A stretch of DNA of 64,000 nucleotides. Origin: Chrysemys picta bellii. Taxonomy: Eukaryota; Chordata; Testudines; Emydidae. The stretch spans positions 558,001-622,000 of the forward strand of contig NC_088801.1 of assembly GCF_011386835.1 (NCBI RefSeq), read 5' to 3'. Position 1 is the stretch's first letter. Every line of letters starts with the position of its first letter. Made by a program: the position numbers and the translations under genes. Below the pieces are notes generated by a model that saw only the letters and a list, made by a program, of their open reading frames with translations, was not told the DNA's origin and did no database searches. Below, one piece after another: positions 4,846-62,545 of the stretch.

Positions 4846-5950
4846 GGCGTAGGCGCCACCTGCCAAACACGTTTTAGGAACGTATTTCCAGCACACACCT
4901 ATCAGCTTTATATGCTGCCCGTACAGAGATCACATGATAATATTAATGACCAGCGTGTTACCAGTGTGCATATGACACCTTTTAGATACAGATTATGACA
5001 AAGGTGCATTGGGTCAGTGAGTGTGTCAGGCCTGATGGTATGGTGTGGCCTCTGCCAACTGGCATTTGAGGGGCTCCTGGGTCACAGTAACATAGAATAT
5101 CAGGGTTGGAAGGGACCTCAGGAGGTATCTAGTCCAACCCCCTGCTCAAAGCAGGACCAATCCCCAACTAAATCATCCCAGCCAGGGCTTTGTCAAGCCA
5201 GGCCTTAAAAATCTCTAAGGATGGAGATTCCACCACCTCCCTAGGTAACGCATTCCAGTGCTTCACCACCCTCCTAGTGAAATAGTGTTTCCTAATATCC
5301 AACCTAGATCTCCCCCACTGCAACTTGAGACCATTGCTCCTTGTTCTGTCATCTGCCACCACTGAGAACAACCGAGCTCCATCCTCTTTGGAACCCCCCT
5401 TCAGGTAGTTGAAAGCAGCTATCAAATCCCCCCTCACTCTTCTCTTCTGCAGACTAAACAATCCCAGTTCCCTCAGCCTCTCCTCATAAGTCATGTGCCC
5501 CAGCCCCCTAATCATTTTCATTGCCCTCCGCTGGACTCTCTCCAATTTGTCCACATCCTTTCTGTAGTGGGGGGACTAAAACTGGACGCAATACTCCAGA
5601 TGTGGCCTCACCAGTGCCGAATAGAGGGGAATAATCACTTCCCTCAATCTGCTGACAATGCTCCTACTAATACAGCCAAATATGCCGTTGGCCTTCTGGG
5701 CAACAAGGGCACACTGCTGACTCCTATCCAGCTTCTCGTCCACTGTAATCCCCAGGTCCTTTTCTGCAGAACTGCTGCTTAGCCAGTCGGTCCCTAGTCT
5801 GTATCAGTGCATGGGATTCTTCCTTCCTAAGTGCAGGACTCTGCACTTGTCCTTGTTGAACCTCATCAGATTTCTTTGGCCCAATCCTCTAATTTGTCTA
5901 GGTCACTCTGGACCCTATCCCTACCCTCCAGCATATCTACCTCTCCCCCC

Positions 5951-14787: not shown

Positions 14788-15547
14788 TTTTCCAGGAAGG
14801 AAGAAGATCAATGAAGTGGTGCAGTCATTATTGAGGGCAAGAGACAAATTGCAGAGACACTTCCCTGAACTTCGGAAAACTGCAGATGATATTGACTGGG
14901 TCCACAAAGGAGCGACAATAGCAAATGTTACTGGAGGGACAGTGGGAATTGCCGGGGGGATAACGACCATCGTAGGCCTCTGTCTCGCTCCTGTTACATT
15001 TGGAGCATCCCTGATAGTCTCTCTTACAGGGCTTGCTGTTTCTACCGCAGGGGGACTGACCAGTGCTGCCGCAACCACCACAGATATAGTGACAAGTAAA
15101 GTCAAGAAGGAGACAGTAGAGAAGCTCCTTCAGGAGTGTCAGACTGAGCTGGATAATATCGAAAAGGCTATAAAACTCTTGGAAAGTTATGGAGACATTG
15201 CTTTTGTGTTTGCAATCCCACAGATAGGTTCAGGGGCAGGACGAGCTGTTCTTAACATCATGAAAATGGTCAAAGCTGGGCAGCTCCTGGCTAATGTTGG
15301 TAGAATTGCAAAATTTGCAGGAGCTGCGACCCACATTCTAACAGGTGTCACCCTGGGGTTAGATATTATCTTTGTAGCAAAGGATTCTGTGGATCTCCAC
15401 AATGGCGCAAAAACGGAGCTGGCAGCTAAAATCCGAGAAGCCGTCAATGAAATGGAGCAAGTGATTGGCCAAGTCAATGAAATGGAGCAAGTGATTCACC
15501 AAGTCAATGAAATGTACAAGGCACTAACTGCAGATAAACAAGAGTGA
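14788..15547 (+). CDS. Apolipoprotein L-like terminal exon, copy A
   Basis: The coding exon follows a strong acceptor (tttttctcccttttctgtcag ending at 14787) and runs to a TGA at 15545-15547, about 253 codons. The reading frame is open upstream to 14603, but that part is intronic by comparison with copy B. An amphipathic start is followed by a long Gly/Ala/Thr-rich hydrophobic hairpin (GGTVGIAGGITTIVGLCLAP onward). A charged segment and a second apolar stretch (GAATHILTGVTLGLDIIFVA) follow. This is the arrangement of the APOL family, whose members act at intracellular membranes and in some mammals form ion channels. The exon starts in phase 2. The C terminus has a 30-bp tandem repeat. No matching upstream coding exon was found in the window, so it may be incomplete. 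Confidence 0.8.
15443..15515 (+). repeat. 30-bp tandem repeat in APOL copy A C terminus
   Basis: The unit gtcaatgaaatggagcaagt plus ten bases occurs twice, followed by a partial third unit. It encodes VNEMEQVI(G/H)Q repeats. Copy B has one unit less, and its stop codon falls where copy A reads Tyr-Lys, so copy A is longer at the C terminus. Confidence 0.85.
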
Positions 15548-49313: not shown

Positions 49314-50924
49314 CAGGGCCGGCCCACAACATTTTGGCACCTGAGGCGGGGAGCTCAAATGACGCCCCCATGTCCCCTCGCTCGGGCCAAAACTTTGAAA
49401 GATGTTAATTCTGCCTTCTTCCTGTTCTACTCCTCTCATGGTACTGCTCTGCTACCTATCCCAATAAAGGAGAACTAACAACTTAAAATGCCTTGTTCAA
49501 AAATTGTAAGTAACTCTTAACTTTCAAACGCCTGAACAGCAAATGTAACTTGTCTTGTCTGCATAGTAAACACTGGCATTTTTATCTGTTTGAATAATCA
49601 AAGTGGTGCTTTCCTGGCCTTCTTGGTCGCAAAGATTTGAACTGCTTCCTGCTGAAGGTCCACAGTCTGGGCCAGCTCATGCTCTACTGAGATGGTTTCA
49701 AGGCCGACCAGCCTCTCCTGTGTCATTGTGGAGCGTAGATGTGTTTTTATTAACTTCAGCTTGGAGAAGCTGCGTTCTTCACTGGCAACTGTTACAGGAA
49801 GTGTTAGAAGTATGCGCAGAGCAACAAAAGCATTTGGAAAGAGGGTGGTCATCTTATTTGTGCACATATATTCCAGAACAGCCTTTGGAGTTGATCCTGC
49901 TGAAATGTGTCTTGAAAGGGCTTTCAGTTCATCCCCTAAATCACTCGCATCAATATCGCGCATGTCATCATGTGTCAACACTGTCTCTAGTGCCCTGCAT
50001 TGCTGGTGTAGGTCTTCTTCGGGTATAGTGAGGAGTTTTGGAATATCATACAACATCCCAAATATATTACGGTGTTCCTTGAGCTGCATGAAACGTTCTT
50101 CAACTGACTGTGTTGCACAGTCTAGCACCTGGTTAAAGAATTCAATTTTGAATTGTTGTTTGGGGTCTCTTATGAGATTATCCCGTGCCTTGTAATTAAA
50201 AGGTCTTCTTCTTTGGTGACTCTTGTATTCTTGAATGGGTGGAAAATCGCTTCAGTGTGAAGTTCCTCTGCCAGCTTCTGTGCACTCTTCAGAATGTTTT
50301 GAAATCCCTCATCTGACCGGTAAGACTGTAGGTATGACTTCGCTATGTCTAGTTGTTCCATTGTTCCAGATATATCAAGGTCAACACCTTGGAGTCTCTT
50401 GCTTACAACATTTATTTCAAACAGTATGTCATGCCACAACACTAAGCCACACAGAAGTTTGAAGTTATGTATGTGTCTGGTGATTCCATTTCCCTCTGCC
50501 ACTGTTCTCCCACGAACAGTTCCTGTCATAGCATTATCCTCCATAATGGCAACTATGGCATCATCTATCTTCCCAATTTGGTGTTTGATCGGTTTTATCA
50601 CCTCTACTCGACTTTCCCATCATGTGGCACTCAGTGGTTTCAGTGTCAGATGTTCCCAGATGTTGCTTCAAAATTTGCCATTGATGAGTTGATGCAGAGA
50701 AAAATACAGAGATGCTTTGACTTACATTAAAAAAACCAGCAGCCTCACTAGCAGCTGATGCTGCATCACTGACCACCAAGCTCAGTGAATGAGAACTGCA
50801 TGGGACAATAAAAGCTCCAGGGTTTAACTCTCAGATCCGTGTCTGCACTCCTCTGTTCTTTCCTCTCATGTTGGCACCATTATCATAGCCCTGACCTCTC
50901 ATGTCAGCTATCGCAACTCCCATT
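49314..50924 (-). pseudogene. hAT transposase relic, ZMYM1-like
   Basis: The 3' terminus cagggccggccc at 49314 is the hAT-type end shared with local MITEs. Minus-strand frames encode MRGQGYDNGANMRG (about 50850-50910), HSLSLVVSDAASAASEAAGFF (about 50735-50800), a middle helical region (50170-50601), and the C-terminal dimerisation domain (49598-49900, RILLTLPVTVASEERSFSKLK). Transposase would cut and paste elements with 8-bp duplications. At least two frameshifts and a stop break it. The N terminus is lost at 50924, where an LTR begins. Confidence 0.85.
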
Positions 50925-54492: not shown

Positions 54493-57360
54493 CTAGACCA
54501 TCCCAGATAGACATTTATCTAACCTACTCTTAAATATCTCCAGAGATGGAGATTCCACAACCTCCCTAGGCAATTTATTCCAGTGTTTAACCACCCTGAC
54601 AGTTAGGAACTTTTTCCTAATGTCCAAGCTAAACCTCCCTTGCTGCAGTTTAAGCCCATTGCTTCTTGTTCTATCCTTAGAGGCTAAGGTGAACAAGTTT
54701 TCTCCCTCCTCCTTATGACACCCTTTTAGATACCTGAAAACTGCTATCATGTTCCCTCTCAGTCTTCTCTTTTCCAAATTAAACAAACCCAATTCTTTCA
54801 GCCTTCCTTCATAGGTCATGTTCTCAAGACCTTTATCATTCTCGTTCCTCTTCTCTGGACCCTCTCCAATTCCTCCACATCTTTCTTGAAGTGCGGTGCC
54901 CAGAACTGGACACAATACTCCAGCTGAGGCCTAACCAGAGCAGAGTAGAGCGGAAGAATGACTTCTCGTGACTTGCTCACAACACACCTGTTAATACATC
55001 CCAGAATCATGTTTGCTTTTTTTGCAACAGCATCACACTGTTGACTGATATTTAGCTTGTGGTCCACTATAACCCCTAGATCCCTTTCTGCCGTACTCCT
55101 TCCTAGACAGTCTCTTCCCATTCTGTATGTGTGAAACTGATTGTTCTTTCCTAAGTGGAGCACTTTGCATTTGTCTTTGTTAAACTTCATCCTGTTTACC
55201 TCAGACCATTTCTCCAATTTGTCCAGATCATTTTGAATAATGACCCTGTCCTCCAAAGCAGTTGCAATCCCTCCCAGTTTGGTATCATCCGCAAACTTAA
55301 TAAGCGTACTTTCTATGCCAATATCTAAGTTGTTGATGAAGATATTGAACAGAGCCGGTCCCAAAACAGACCCCTGCGGAACCCCATTTGTTATGCCTTT
55401 CCAGCAGGATTGGGAACCATTAATAACTACTCTGAGTACGGTTATCCAGCCAGTTATGCACCCACCTTATAGTAGCCCCATCTAAATTGTATTTGCCTAG
55501 TTTATCGATAAGAATATCATGCAAGACCATATCAAATGCCTTACTAAAGTCTAGGTATACCACATCCATCGCTTCTCCCTTATCCACAAGACTCGTTATT
55601 CTATCAAAGAAAGCTATCAGATTGGTTTGTTTTGACAGGTTTTGTTCTTTACAAATCCATAATGGCTATTCCCTATCACCTTACCACCTTCCAAGTGTTT
55701 GCAGATGATTTCCTTAATTACTCGCTCCATTATCTTCCCTGGCACAGACGTTAAACTAACTGGTCTGTAGTTTCCTGGGTTGTTTTTATTTCCCTTTTTA
55801 TAGATGGGCACTATATTTGCCCTTTTCCAGTCTTCTGGAATCTCTCCCGTCTCCCATGATTTTCCAAAGATAATAGCTAGAGGCTCAGATACCTCCTCTA
55901 TTAGCTCCTTGAGTATTCTGGGATGCATTTCATCAGGCCCTGGTGACTTGCAGGCATCTAACTTTTCTAAGTGATTTTTTAACTTGTTCTTTTTTTATTT
56001 TATCTGCTAAACCTACCCCCTTCCCATTAGCATTCACTATGTTAGGCATTCCTTCAGTTAGGCATTCCCTCATTTTCGGTGAGGACCGAAACAAAGAAGT
56101 CATTAAGCATCTCTGCCATTTCCAAGTTTCCTGTTACTGTTTCTCCCTCTTCAATGAGCAGTGGGCCTACCCTGTCTTTGGTCTTCCTCTTGCTTCTAAT
56201 GTATTGATAAAAAGTCTTCTTGTTTCCCTTTATTCCTGTAGCTAGTTTGAGCTCATTTTGTGCCTTTGCCTTTCTAATCTTGCCCCTGCATTCCTGTGTT
56301 GTTTGCCTATATTCATCCTTTGTAATCTGTCCTAGTTTCCATTTTTTATATGACTCCTTTTTATGTTTTAGATCGTGCAAGATCTCGTGGTTAAGCAAAG
56401 CTGGTCTTTTGCCACATTTTCTAAATTTTCTACCCAGCGGAATAGCCAGGAGTGCCGCCAGATTCTCTGCCGCCCTAGGCGGCGGAAGGTCCCACCCCAA
56501 AATGCCGCTGCGGTCGCCGCCCCCCAAATTGTAGCTCCCTAGGCGACCACCTAGGTCACCTAATGGGTTGCACCGGCCCTGGGAATAGCTTGCTTTTGGG
56601 CCCTTAATAGTGTCCCTTTGAAAAACTGCCAACTCTCCTCAGTTGTTTTCCCCTCAGTCTTGATTCCCATGGGACCTTACCTATCAGCTCTCTGAGCTTA
56701 CCAAAATCCGCCTTCCTGAAATCCATTGTCTCTATTTTGCTGTTCTCCCTTCTACCCTTCCTTAGAATTGCAAACTCTATGATTTCATGATCACTTTCAC
56801 CCAGGCTGCCTTCTACTTTCAAATTCTCAACGAGTTCCTCCCTATTTGTTAAAATCAAGTCTAGAACAGCTTCCCCCCTAGTAGCTTTTTCAACCTTCTG
56901 AAATAAAAAGTTGTCTGCAATGCAGTCCAAGAATTTGTTGGATAGTCTGTGCCCCGCTTTGTTATTTTCCCAACATATATCCGGATAGTTGAAGTCCCCC
57001 ATCACCACCAAATCTTGGGCTTTGGATGATTTTGTTAGTTGTTTAAAAAAAAGCCTCATCCACCTCTTCCACCTGGTTAGGTGGCCTGTAGTAGACTCCT
57101 AGCATGACATCTCCCTTGTTTTTTACCCCTTTTAGCCTAACCCAGAGACTCTCAACACTTCCGTCTCCTATGTCCATCTCTACCTCAGTCCAAGTGTGTA
57201 CATTTTTAATATATAAGGCAACACCTCCTCCCTTTTTCCCCTGTCTATCCTTCCTGAGCAAGCTGTACCCATCCACACCAACATTCCAATCATGTGTATT
57301 ATTATCCCACCAAGTTTCAGTGATGCCAACAAGGTCATAGTTGTATTTATTTATTAGCAT
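54493..57360 (-). pseudogene. CR1 copy B ORF2 (endonuclease-RT), broken
   Basis: Endonuclease is at 57360-56604 ([27 protein letters not shown]), then the MITE, then the RT start at 56446-56054. RT motifs follow at 55928-55617 and 55364-54816 ([11 protein letters not shown]), with the C-terminal part at 54915-54493. Frame changes near 57050, 56046, 55640, 55430 and 54850 separate the pieces. Confidence 0.85.
56447..56581. mobile_element. hAT MITE in CR1 copy B (135 bp)
   Basis: Same length, same ends (caggagtgccg...caccggccctg), same 8-bp duplication ggaatagc (56439-56446 and 56582-56589) and same position in ORF2 as the MITE at 11072-11206. Confidence 0.9.
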
Positions 57361-57514
57361 CTAAGATACTGATTTGATCTTGCCTCCCAGTTTTGCCCTG
57401 ACCCTCCTTTTTTTCTGCCATTATAGCCCACGCTCCCTCCTATTTCCGACCCATCTCCCAGGTCTCCATGTTCCCCACTTACCTGTGGGCTTTGCTCACC
57501 TGTCCCCATCGAAC

Positions 57515-58474
57515 CTAGTTTAAAGCCCTCCTCACTAGGTTAGCCAGTCTGTGTCCAAATAGGGTCTTTCCCCTCCTTGAAAGGTGAACGCCATCTCTGC
57601 CTAGCAGTCCTTCCTCGAATAGCATCCCGTGGTCTAGGAAGCCAAAGCCCTCCTGGCGACACCATCTTCGCAGCCAGGCATTCACCTCCATTATGCATCT
57701 GTCTCTGCCCGGGCCCCTAGCTTTGACAGGAAGAATTGAAGAGAATACCACCTGCGCTCCAAACTCCTTCACCCGTACTCCCAGAGCCCTGTAGTCACTC
57801 TTGATCCGCTCAGTGTCACACCGCGCAGTATCATTTGTGCCCACATGGATGAGTAGCATGGGGTAGTAGTCAGAGGGCTGGATAATCCTCGACAATGCCT
57901 CCGTAACGTCTCGGATATGGGCTCCCGGCAGGCAGCATACCTCCCAAGATGAAATGTCAGGGCGACAGATGGGTGCCTCCGTCCCCCTCAGCAGAGAGTC
58001 TCCGACCACCACTACCCTACCTTTCCTATTCGCAGTGGTGGCAGCAGACCTCCCAGCCTTAGGGGTACGAGGCTTCTCCTCCTTTACTGTAGGGGGTGAT
58101 TCCTTCTCTCCTGTATCAAGAAGAGCATAACGGTTACCTATTACCACGGCAGGAGGGTTCGGAGCAAGGGTGGAGCACTGCCTGCTGCCAGAAGTAACCA
58201 GCTTCCAGTGTCCACCCTGAGCCATCTCCTCCTCCACCAGTGGTGTGTCAGCAGTCCTGTGTACTGGGACAGCTACCTCAGCTGTCTCCACATGGACACT
58301 GTCGAGGAATTGCTCGTGGATTCGGATGCTCCTCAACCTAGCCACCTCCTCCTGTAGCTCTCCCACCTGCTGCCTGAGAGATTCCACCAGCAGGCACCTC
58401 TCACATTGGATGGTCCCTGCAGCCTGGATATCAGTAAGTGGAAATTGCAAGTTACAGTCCCTGCAAAACCACAC
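57515..58474 (-). CDS. CR1 ORF1 protein, intact, GDSL-esterase type
   Basis: The 319-codon frame is undisturbed. It has an N-terminal paired CxxC zinc module (C4, C7, C24, C27), a short leucine-rich coiled coil (about 28-50), a low-complexity linker, and an SGNH/GDSL hydrolase domain (about 152-319). The hydrolase has GDSLL (Ser160), HVGTND (210-215) and DGVHL (Asp294, His297), the expected catalytic set. ORF1 proteins of this CR1 type bind RNA and may act on lipids or membranes; the exact role is not settled. Its partner ORF2 downstream on the same strand is broken. An open ORF1 suggests recent activity of the family or chance survival. Confidence 0.88.
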   Translation of the reverse strand: MWFCRDCNLQFPLTDIQAAGTIQCERCLLVESLRQQVGELQEEVARLRSIRIHEQFLDSVHVETAEVAVPVHRTADTPLVEEEMAQGGHWKLVTSGSRQCSTLAPNPPAVVIGNRYALLDTGEKESPPTVKEEKPRTPKAGRSAATTANRKGRVVVVGDSLLRGTEAPICRPDISSWEVCCLPGAHIRDVTEALSRIIQPSDYYPMLLIHVGTNDTARCDTERIKSDYRALGVRVKEFGAQVVFSSILPVKARGPGRDRCIMEVNAWLRRWCRQEGFGFLDHGMLFEEGLLGRDGVHLSRRGKTLFGHRLANLVRRALN

Positions 58475-58504
58475 CAGGATCTGGGTAGATCCTGTTGGTT
58501 GATG

Positions 58505-58960: not shown

Positions 58961-59408
58961 CATGTACATAACATGTAACTCCGCTGTAGAACTCATGGCC
59001 ACAGGTTGTCATGTGCGGGATTCAGAGGAGAATTGGAGACTCAGACAGGCAGCACCTCCACGGTTACACGAGAGAGAATGAAAACACAAAACCAAGTCTC
59101 CAATGTTTGGAAGGGATCTAAACTCTCCCCCTCAGGGCACAAGCCTCCCAGACACTAACTATCTGGAGTTAGGAAGAAAGTCTCTCTAAGGGTGAATTAT
59201 TCTGCACTTGTCCATTGGGGGCGTATCTTGCCCCTTCCCCTGAACCAGCTGGTACCAGCCAGTTTCAGAGAGAGAAGAGGGGGCTAGATGGACGCCTGGT
59301 CTGATCTGGTCGGGTGTTTCCTGTGTTCCCATTAGAGTGAATCGAAATGTGTCAGACACTTCACCTCGAAAGGCAACGTAATCAAAGCCAAATCTTGTGT
59401 TTTAACAG

Positions 59409-59467
59409 AGAGAGCTCACCTGGAGAATTACTCTTGGCTGAAGTGAACGTGCAACGTAGGTGCAAAG
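59409..59467 (+). other. Likely 5' untranslated part of the peptidase exon
   Basis: An acceptor-like ttgtgttttaacag ends at 59408, suggesting an upstream non-coding exon. An in-frame TGA at 59444-59446 precludes coding continuation from upstream, so translation most likely begins at 59468. Confidence 0.5.
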
Positions 59468-60225
59468 ATGAGTTGCCAGGAAATAATCACTAGCAGCATG
59501 ACATCACATGGAAGAATGTGCTCTACTTCTAAAGCAAGTTACTCTTCCAGTAACTACACATCCCTACCTGAAGAAAGGAGACAAATTGCAGAAGCAGCAA
59601 AGCGGAGAGCAATTGAGATTCTGAGAGATGCCCTGAAGAAGAAGGACCGAGTGCTGATGGAGAAACCCCAGGGTCTGTTTTTGGATGATAGTGGAGATCC
59701 CAAATCGTGGATGAAACGCCATGTGATACTGACAGAAGAGTTAGTTCGAGATCTCATCTCAGAGCTGGAAGCTGTGAAGTTTAAGGAGGATCTAACCAGG
59801 GAAAATAATGACGCATATATTTATTCGGAGTCTGGTGACAAAACAGTGTATTTGTGCCCACGGTTCTGGAAGGCTTCTACATATCTTGGAGAAGGGTCTC
59901 AGCCAGGGACTCTTATCCATGAAGCGTCTCACTTCCTGGGGATACGAGATATCAACCATTCCAAGGAGAGTATCCATGTTGCCTTTGCCTGGAGAGGGAA
60001 GTTGGCAAAGTTGAAAGTTGGTTCAGAACCCAGTGTCCCAGATCTGAATTCCCTTGCGAAAGCACTATTAAATGCCAACAACATTGAGCGTGAATTTGAA
60101 ATTACCCTAAATCACAAAGGAAAATACAAGAATGGAAAATACACCTGCTGTGGGGAAAAAGCCGTGAACTCAGTTTGTGAGAGAGCTGTGCCTGATGAGT
60201 TTCTTACCTGCAATTTCCAGGGAAG
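59468..60225 (+). CDS. Aspzincin (M35)-like zinc metallopeptidase exon
   Basis: The ATG at 59468 is the first Met after an in-frame stop and opens 253 codons to a TAA at 60227-60229. That TAA overlaps a strong splice donor (AAG/GTAAGC at 60225/60226), so coding probably continues by splicing. Residues 33-110 are helical and charged. The peptidase core (about 115-175) has AYIYSESGDKTVYLCPRFW, then TLIHEASHFLG with zinc ligands His151 and His155 and catalytic Glu152. Asp161 is the likely third ligand. A Cys-rich tail follows (C227, C228, C237, C248). M35 enzymes are small zinc endopeptidases best known from fungi and bacteria. The HExxH-to-Asp spacing is shorter than in deuterolysin-type enzymes, so activity is uncertain. 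No signal peptide is visible. Confidence 0.75.
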
Positions 60226-61779
60226 GTAAGCAACTCTCCTTTCCCCTGGGCAGTGCATGTTGTGTGTGGTTCCCTCACTATTCACTGTATGGCAGTAGTG
60301 CCTAGGGACCCCACACAGGGATTGTGTCCCCATGGTGCTAGGGGCTGTACTCATGGTGGAGAGACAGCCCTTGCCCCAGGGCGCTCGCAATCCAGGATTA
60401 TCATAAGGTGCAAGTGGGTGGAAGAAAGACAACCAGGGCAAGGGGTGAGACGGTGACAGTAAAACGAACACCATGTGCCAGCCCCTGAGCTGGTGCAGAC
60501 CAGGGTGGCATAGCTCCATTTACTGCAATGGAACCAATTGCACTAGCTGAGACCTGCTCACACCTCTACGTAACAGCTCACACATCTCAGCCATTGTCAT
60601 ACAGCCATTGTTTCACTGGGCACCAGGGCAGGGGTAAAGCTGAAGGAGAATTGCAGAGGACGAGGTGGGAGTTTAGGAGATGGTATGAAGGTGCTGGTGG
60701 ATGAAAGACCAGCCGGCAGTAAGGGATGAAGTAACGGGTAGAGGGAAGGCCGAGGTCAGCGCTGTGGTACTGTAACTCAGGGGTTCTCAACCTTTTTCTT
60801 TCTGAGCCCCCCCCCCCACACACACACATGCTATAAAAACTCCACGGCCCCCCTGTGCCACAACAACGGTTTTCCTGCATATAAAAGCCAGGGCCGGCCT
60901 TAGGGGCACCAAGCAGGACAAGTGCCCAGGGTCTCACATCACAGGGGGCCCAGCAAAGCTACATTGCTCCGGCTTCAACTTCAGCCCCGGGGTTCAGCCC
61001 CGTGCAGTCGGGCTTTGGCTTTCTGCCCTGGGCCCCAGCAAATCTCATGCTGGCCCTGCTTGGCGGATCCCCTGGTTGAGAATCACTGCTATAACTGACT
61101 GGGGGGGCGGGGACTGAACAGGGAAGGGCCCAACCAGCGAAGGCCAGGAGCTGGGGTTTGACATGGGGGAGGAGAGAGAACCAGGGGAGTGACACAACAG
61201 GGTGATGTGGTTGGAGCAGAGAGCCGGGAAGCTCATCCCAGGAGGAGGGTTTGAACGAGCCTGAGGGGGAGATGATCAGGCCTGGGCCCCACAAATCAGA
61301 ACGTCTGGTTTCTTTTTTAAGTTAATTTTTAAAGCGGTGTGTGTGTGTGTGTGGGGGGGGGGGGTTGTTTGTGTTCCCCTACCTGGGTGTGTGTTGGAGT
61401 CGAACCCTCTCCGTGGAATCGACTCTTAAGTTAACCTTTGGGCAGTTTATTCCACAATTTTCCCTTAAGGGTGTTTTCACATTCCTGTAAATCACCGGCT
61501 ACTGGTCCCTCTTGGAGACACACCACAAGTCTTCTGCAGCTGTGCCGTTGATCTGATCCAGTGTGGCAATTCCAACGGTCCTAAGTTAAATTCTGGGTCT
61601 TTATCCAAATGAAACCTACTGAGGTTCACCCGTCACCAAGGCCCAAACTCAGCCCTGGTCTAAGTGGACGCAGCTCCCATGGAAGTCAATGGGAGCAAGT
61701 CCAGACTGCACAAGAAGGTGCAAGAGCAGGGATCTTAGACCTGGAGACTAATTTTTCCTTTTTCCCTCATTTCTGTCAG
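60226..61779 (+). other. Predicted intron between peptidase and APOL exons
   Basis: The donor GTAAGC at 60226 and the acceptor tttccctcatttctgtcag ending at 61779 are both strong. The donor exon leaves two bases of a codon and the acceptor exon supplies one, so the frame is kept into the APOL-like sequence. The intron holds MITEs (60778-61087) and a (gt)n/(g)n tract at about 61337-61366, and no other gene. Confidence 0.6.
60778..61087. mobile_element. Nested hAT-type MITEs in the intron
   Basis: Outer element: tcaggggttctcaacctttt at the left, ccctggttgagaatcactgc at the right, an inverted pair. A second sequence starting cagggccggccttaggggca at about 60891 is inserted or fused inside. Confidence 0.65.
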
Positions 61780-62503
61780 TTTGTCAATAATGAAGGACAT
61801 TGATGAAATACTGACGGAGTCGTTATTGCCAGCAAGAGACAGAGTGAAGAGACACATAGATGAGCTTCGGGAAATTGCAGATGATATTGACAAGATCCAC
61901 AAAGGAGCGACAATAGCAAACATTGCTGGAGGGACAGTGGGAATTGCCGGGGGGATAACAACCATCGTAGGCCTCTGTCTCATTCCTGTTACATTTGGAG
62001 CATCCCTGATAGTCTCTCTTACAGGGCTTGCTGTTTCTACCGCAGGGGGACTGACCAGTGCAGCCGCAACCACCACAGATATAGTGACAAGTACAGTCAA
62101 GAGGGAGACAGTAGAGAAGCTCCTTCAGGAGTGTCAGGCTGACGTGGAACATATCCAAGACTATGCAGAAAGAATAGCTGAAAAAATCGAAAACTTGAAA
62201 GATAATGAAAAGAAAGGTTTTGTGTTTGCAATCCCACAGATAGGTTCAGGGGCAGGACGAGCTGTTCTTAACACCATGAAAATGGTCAAAGCTGGTCAGC
62301 TCCTGGCTAATGTTGGTAGAATTGCAAGATTTGCAGGAGCTGCGACCCATGTTCTAACAGCTCTCACCCTGGGGTTAGATATTTTCTTTGTAGCAAAAGA
62401 TTCTATGGATCTCCACAAAGGTGCAAAAACGGAGCTGGCAGCTGAAATCCGAGAAATAGCCAATAAAATGGAGCAAATAATTGACCAATTAAACGAAATG
62501 TGA
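61780..62503 (+). CDS. Apolipoprotein L-like exon, copy B
   Basis: About 240 codons run from the acceptor to TGA at 62501-62503. There is no ATG at the exon edge; the first internal Met is at 61790, so the exon is best read as a continuation of an upstream exon. Content matches copy A: amphipathic start (DEILTESLLPARDRVKRH), Gly/Ala/Thr-rich apolar hairpin (GGTVGIAGGITTIVGLCLIP onward), a charged helix with three residues more than copy A, and the second apolar stretch (GAATHVLTALTLGLDIFFVA). APOL proteins act on intracellular membranes. The preceding exon codes for an M35-like peptidase in the matching phase. Translation from the internal Met as a stand-alone APOL is the alternative. Confidence 0.8.
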
Positions 62504-62545
62504 ACAGCCCTAACTGCAGATAAACAAGAGTGAATTTGGGGCAAA

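Follow-up and report, generated by a model that had tools for sequence, protein, structure and literature searches.

An M35 exon and an APOL exon with an open joined frame

We describe a locus in a window of 64,000 nt of Chrysemys picta bellii DNA (the whole stretch analysed; contig NC_088801.1, positions 558,001 to 622,000), where an exon for an M35 (aspzincin) metallopeptidase domain is followed on the same strand by an exon for an APOL domain. A second APOL exon of the window is referred to as copy A. The features in question, in window coordinates, are as follows.

59409..59467, plus strand: predicted 5′ untranslated region belonging to the M35 exon; preceded by the acceptor-like ttttaacag (59400-59408)
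59468..60225, plus strand: M35 exon, coding portion (252 complete codons and 2 further bases)
59918..59932, plus strand: HEASH zinc-binding motif, residues 151-155 (alignment A4)
59948..59959, plus strand: presumed third-ligand Asp (residue 161) and His at residue 164 (alignment A4)
60113..60178, plus strand: BTK-like H-x10-CC-x8-C zinc motif, residues 216-237 (alignment A4)
60226..61779, plus strand: phase-2 intron of 1554 bp, GTAAGC...TGTCAG; five sister introns of 1611-1665 bp have identical ends
61780..62503, plus strand: APOL exon up to its TGA stop (Pfam PF05461, 3.8e-34)
61790..61792, plus strand: ATG within the APOL exon, in frame, ten bases from the exon edge; in-frame TAG upstream at 61736-61738
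61922..62044, plus strand: long hydrophobic stretch at residues 301-341, with 19-residue Kyte-Doolittle means above 1.6
62339..62395, plus strand: second hydrophobic stretch at residues 440-458, which contains the Asp of an LGLD motif (62378-62380)
62504..62533, plus strand: codons TALTADKQE-stop after the TGA; tblastn of protein P0005 reads NEM-stop-TALTADKQE here
14788..15547, plus strand: APOL exon of copy A; M35 exon assigned at C11:548803-549555, C11 being the contig on which the window lies (C11:558001-622000)

The M35 frame runs for 253 codons from the ATG at 59468 to a TAA at 60227-60229, which overlaps the donor AAG/GTAAGC (60225/60226); the acceptor ...ccctcatttctgtcag/TTTGTCA stands at 61779/61780. 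Two codon bases are left by the donor and one is supplied by the acceptor: AG+T across the join gives Ser, the junction reads CNFQG/SLSIMKDIDE and the frame stays open until the TGA at 62501-62503, for a total of 493 amino acids. The original prediction had claimed the frame, the stop over the donor, the acceptor, the matching phase and an equal acceptor phase in copy A (exon start 14788), and all of these are found in the letters. It had further claimed the absence of a start codon from the edge of the APOL exon; none stands right there, but the in-frame ATG lies ten bases inside. The exon pair with its in-frame join is confirmed in the window.

A cluster of paired exons in the turtle genome

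In a scan of the 2.37-Gb assembly only the best candidates were scored, and the locus counts are lower bounds. The M35 exon search gave 14 rows, four being pieces of one broken exon, and thus at least 10 intact exons and 1 broken exon, all within positions 36 to 618 kb of C11. The 14 rows of the APOL exon search comprised at least 11 loci in the same stretch of C11 (one split over two rows) and two loci on C1. No M35 match outside the cluster was seen at E-value 1e-3 among the best candidates scored genome-wide.

Every one of the 11 M35 exons has one APOL match downstream on the same strand: six intact pairs are spaced by ∼1.6 kb, two by about 23-24 kb, one pair is broken and two have a partial APOL match (52410 and 116195). 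The donor GTAAGCAACTC is invariant in all ten intact M35 exons, as is the presence of TTTTAACAG upstream of the ATG, at a distance constant within one base. The TAA overlapping the donor is also present in all ten; this is trivial, since an AG-ending exon in that phase before GTAAG reads AGG-TAA. The acceptor CTGTCAG/T is constant in the six short-intron pairs, and joined frames are open in these six (the window pair included) as well as in the two long-intron pairs. The first copy's partial APOL partner joins in frame too (431 residues, acceptor tcttag/C); the copy at 94513, with APOL match 116195, was left out of the joined pairs. As for copy A, an M35 partner sought within the window is not there: the assigned exon sits about 23 kb upstream, beyond the window, and the joined frame (503 amino acids) is open.

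When the same splice was applied to four sister pairs, it reproduced exactly the Chrysemys picta bellii NCBI proteins P0001 (508/508), P0002 (509/509), P0003 (508/508) and P0005 (503/503), gene models that may lean partly on homology. For the other three of the seven joins compared (L027, L028 and that of the window), the fetched proteins, a list holding one representative per 90% cluster, included no identical record. The four matches support the claim that one protein is encoded; together, the sister copies and the identical NCBI proteins rule out chance frame agreement, expected one time in three. A protein search for single entries with both domains found them in 28 of 65 rows, and another search in 19 of 35 rows, with 12 common to both. 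The M35-APOL combination is therefore already in databases, mostly without a functional name. The original prediction had called it unfamiliar in vertebrates, which stands as far as papers are concerned (none on the combination was found in the open-licence literature) but not for database entries. There was no mention of reptile, bird or fish in the APOL papers text-searched for these words. On the evidence of sequence, we regard it as very probable that the M35 and APOL exons are parts of one fused gene with a predicted two-exon transcript.

Several other elements were seen around these genes. Both exons of a broken sister pair (L033, C11:499606-502734) carry stops and frameshifts, and its splice sites are intact. 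The two C1 APOL loci are L047 (C1:96483142), which matches positions 45-297 of the ApoL profile, and C1:88939654; C1 has no M35 match among the best candidates scored. In the window, upstream of the M35 exon, long interspersed element (LINE)-like frames occupy 54816-58501 on the minus strand (reverse transcriptase, endonuclease, GDSL-esterase), and a frame for the C-terminal dimerisation region of a hAT transposase lies at 49598-50251, also on the minus strand.

Features of the peptidase half

The M35 exon matches Pfam PF14521 (Aspzincin_M35) with an E-value of 8.9e-9 and 36.4 bits (cut-off 30), and the peptidase fold matches the M35 structures 2x3a and 1g12. Conservation was assessed in an alignment (A4) of 56 rows picked from the window and 98 listed proteins; it includes three outgroup M35 proteins and leaves out P0002 (with His at residue 164) and P0024 (with Arg for the first His). 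In the HEASH motif the Glu and the second His are kept in 56/56 rows and the first His in 55/56. Asp161 is kept in 54 of the 56 rows and aligns with that of outgroup M35 proteins across a 3-residue gap, the stretch from His to Asp being shorter by these three residues. We take this Asp to be the third zinc ligand and residue 164 to be the place of the active-site Tyr, presumably as in the Grifola enzyme.

The ligands of the BTK-like motif are also well conserved (H in 53, C in 52, C in 53 and C in 53 of the 56 rows). Its Pfam BTK score is 16.6 bits in the window copy (cut-off 24) and 36.7 in an Anguilla relative; among the Foldseek matches, BTK PH-TH structures appear at E-values above 1 only. 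A hydrophobic leader was looked for in residues 1-252 by the Kyte-Doolittle method and none was found. Judged by alignment and fold comparison, the peptidase part keeps the M35 fold and the zinc ligands.

Features of the APOL half

The APOL exon scores 118.9 bits against Pfam ApoL (cut-off 25.9), the best stretch covering profile positions 63-183 of 298. The N-terminal helical domain of the APOL1-6 type was not found: the match begins at position 63 and is preceded by M35. Since M35 replaces this domain, we do not file the window protein with the APOL1-6 type. Residues 301-341 are presumed to be the membrane-insertion region. The LGLD Asp in the second hydrophobic segment, presumably the equivalent of D348, is kept in 23/26 family rows of alignment A1; in 16 of the 26 rows, a 57-residue membrane segment is entirely uncharged. 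According to PMC8358165, the membrane segment of APOL3-6 lacks the charges found in APOL1, insertion of APOL3, 4 and 5 takes place at neutral pH, and a conserved Asp is stressed for cation selectivity. Intracellular bacteria are killed by APOL3 through a detergent-like action, as stated in PMC10937811.

A search of the PDB by sequence for APOL relatives gave five weak matches (best E-value 0.066), with no APOL among them. The full-length model of the fusion was poor (predicted local distance difference test score, pLDDT, of 50.6), and its matches to helical bundles, one of them a pore former, were not used. Five sister copies end in another tail, ...PSLTKPWLG; an 11-residue stretch similar to it lies at window positions 5176-5208 on the minus strand (E-value 0.14), and this tail may be derived from a repeat.

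Distribution and origin of the fusion

Proteins with both domains were observed in hidden-necked and side-necked turtles, two alligators, ratites, game birds, ducks and a screamer. No M35-APOL rows from mammals, snakes or Neoaves were seen in searches bound by word sharing, which does not prove loss. P0075 and P0078, which by eye come closest to proteins of game birds and ducks, terminate in PQR and PER, where their spliced relatives P0070 and P0072 continue with PQS and PKS; the source tag 'lgn' of the former two presumably stands for Logan contigs. These ends suggest that the intron position is common to birds and turtles. The annotated isoforms P0037 (Rhea) and P0071 (Apteryx rowi) lack 33 residues shortly before HExxH, which suggests a further intron there in birds.

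Seven lizard proteins were divided for a test of their tails: the tails of five (those of P0039 and P0080 were dropped as seemingly unrelated or short) matched the profile of fused APOLs at 98.5% (E-value 2e-15, 149 columns) and that of standalone APOLs at 97.8%, the tested tails including about 20 peptidase-side residues. Column-shuffled controls stayed below 1%, while reversed ones reached 21% (fused) and 62% (standalone), making the comparison with standalone APOLs less clean. Pfam ApoL is listed in two of the four scanned lizard proteins used, both times under the cut-off. By these profile matches, the lizard proteins bear a diverged APOL-like tail.

In the APOL tree, a supported group (95/96) unites the standalone APOLs of frog, fish and one lizard. 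A weak group (80/70) contains the turtle and alligator APOLs alongside reptile records without an M35 part; the birds attach with one side-necked turtle at an open fork, and the tails from lizards stand apart on long branches. A single origin is neither shown nor excluded by this tree. A single fusion before reptile diversification would be the simplest history; in the best explanation the arrangement goes back at least as far as the turtle-archosaur ancestor and probably to the ancestor of reptiles.

Proposed working of the fusion protein

The explanation that we favour overall, with a probability of roughly 75%, is a two-exon fused gene whose product works at membranes in defence. Two coding exons would encode a single chain, the M35 zinc peptidase with its BTK-like zinc motif and then the APOL membrane module, and the window gene would be one of the 11 tandem or inverted copies found in the turtle. 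The protein would stay intracellular, because it has no hydrophobic leader. At neutral pH the APOL part would become inserted in membranes, like human APOL3-5 in bilayers; the peptidase tethered to it would cleave a membrane-side substrate or its own chain, in the latter case switching insertion on.

Cell-autonomous defence is the likely setting, because these genes are multiplying and, outside the catalytic core, changing fast. The ratio of nonsynonymous to synonymous changes (dN/dS) was 1.73 for residues 1-30, 1.21 for 31-85, 0.55 for 86-125, 0.55 for 126-168, 1.24 for 169-200 and 0.96 for 201-252 (0.92 overall), as computed from 6 pairs of 4 representative copies with small synonymous counts. 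Our reading is of a core under constraint between flanks that change fast, a pattern shared with defence genes; a relaxation of constraint would be the alternative. Defence of an intracellular kind is favoured by the missing leader, the uncharged segment, the LGLD Asp and the bactericidal action of APOL3. A defence effector is the function we would choose by a small margin of confidence, and gating of the membrane part by the protease is a tentative proposal, less likely than not.

Alternative explanations

A number of observations weigh against this explanation, and we consider them here with the alternatives. Patterns of interferon, GAS (gamma-activated site) or NF-kB type were sought in the 1.5 kb upstream of the coding start in ten copies: there was one NF-kB-like site (L017) and no motif of interferon or GAS type, the promoter position being not known. 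The lysines near the junction vary across the family and therefore speak against a fixed Lys-directed self-cleavage site; self-cleavage at a conserved junction lysine was rejected, as the lysine is not conserved.

The alternative that survives best, still a good deal less probable than its opposite, is that the fused gene also yields short products that matter: M35-only by intron retention and APOL-only from an internal start. A Chrysemys record of 249 amino acids (P0087) stops at the donor-overlapping stop, giving an M35-only reading, and APOL-only records exist as well, namely P0026 (UniRef) and the kiwi isoform P0081 (Apteryx rowi isoform X2, 234 amino acids, starting within APOL). Rhea isoform X2 (P0037), with its 33 missing M35 residues, points the same way; however, every such record is a prediction.

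Somewhat more doubtful is the idea that the M35 half serves as a sensor, or is a pseudoenzyme, and is not a protease. In the alligator proteins P0022 and P0024 Arg replaces the first His, and P0022 additionally lacks the Asp. Residue 164 is Tyr in 52 of the 56 rows of A4, and the window copy has His; this lowers the probability of activity in the window copy and would leave the family match intact. The shortened His-Asp spacing could be read in the same way. Against these stand the conservation of HExxH and of the Asp in 54 or more of the 56 rows, the core dN/dS of 0.55 and the fold matches to M35 enzymes.

We consider it unlikely that the window copy is decaying, i.e. a real family member on the way to losing function. 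Its TGA cuts it about ten codons short of the TALTADKQE end used by relatives, a broken sister exists, and to the His at 164 one may add that pairwise dN/dS of the seven joined copies (21 pairs) ranged from 0.33 to 1.90 and was mostly near 1 in both exons. Yet in other respects both of its exons and their splice sites are preserved. If the copies were drifting, one would expect about 8 nonsense changes over the ten intact M35 exons and 3 over the six APOL exons, and none was seen upstream of the window copy's late TGA (P(0) of 1.8e-5; with that TGA counted in, P(at most 1) is about 2e-4). The estimate leaves out the broken copy, uses sequences cut at their stop, takes half of the changes as transitions and ignores gene conversion.

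A reading with two adjacent genes, M35 ending at the TAA (60229) and APOL starting at the ATG (61790), has very little probability left. The in-frame ATG fits it, and an APOL-only start there is compatible with the sequence; the M35-only records P0087 (Chrysemys) and P0074 (Alligator) stop at the matching place, and the APOL-only records P0026 and P0081 fit too. It is contradicted by the four exact NCBI joins, by the 11 co-oriented pairs out of 11 (two across introns of about 23-24 kb), by the identical donor of the ten intact exons, by copy A, which has no ATG at the edge of its APOL exon, and by the missing M35 matches elsewhere in the genome among the best candidates scored (E-value 1e-3). 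An assembly or annotation artefact, conceivable as gene models may be copied between species, can practically be dismissed: the exon pair occurs 11 times in turtle DNA, and the entries of other turtles, of alligators and of birds come from other contigs and several annotation sources.

Comparison with known systems

A parallel to the fused gene is offered by fish kinase-APOL proteins: P0059 and P0060 (Conger conger), P0062 (Pseudorasbora) and P0063 (Garra), whose APOL part starts from profile position 43-62 (the kinase match of P0059 is partial). In these, as in the turtle protein, a catalytic N-terminal domain is joined near the same APOL boundary (43-62 versus 63); the head is a kinase there and a peptidase in turtle. 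Taken together, the two arrangements suggest a design principle in which the head is swapped and the membrane tail is kept. One could speculate that APOL is a transferable membrane-attack module with differing catalytic heads, peptidase in reptiles and birds and kinase in fish, and that the turtle cluster is a rapidly evolving, one-chain, protease-controlled set for membrane-lytic defence. A peptidase-tethered APOL in many fast-changing copies provides a direct test of how insertion is regulated, and the lineage also tests the role of APOL outside mammals. The family is easily overlooked, its records being mostly without a functional name.

Compared with the M35 aspzincins, such as the peptidyl-Lys metalloendopeptidase of Grifola (1g12) and AsaP1 of Aeromonas (2x3a), the turtle protein differs in having no hydrophobic leader, three fewer residues between His and Asp, the extra BTK-like zinc motif and the fusion to APOL. 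The M35 proteins of fish (Anguilla, Albula, Arapaima) and of a salamander (Ambystoma) share M35 and the H...CC...C motif, whereas no ApoL domain is listed for them. One of them, P0048 (Anguilla anguilla), has M35 with three tandem H...CC...C motifs by eye, two stretches each passing Pfam BTK separately.

Mammalian APOL proteins are known as non-enzymatic and membrane-active, with roles in defence and disease. The turtle protein is similar to APOL1-6 in its ApoL Pfam domain and in the Asp within the second hydrophobic segment (assuming its equivalence to D348); it differs in that the peptidase occupies the place of their N-terminal region. The uncharged membrane segment is a further likeness, to APOL3-6 as described in PMC8358165. 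A last comparison is with protease-activated pore formers such as gasdermins, with which the peptidase-APOL fusion shares the idea that proteolysis is linked to a domain acting on membranes; in the turtle protein the protease and the membrane part are in one chain, and activation of the latter by the former is putative.
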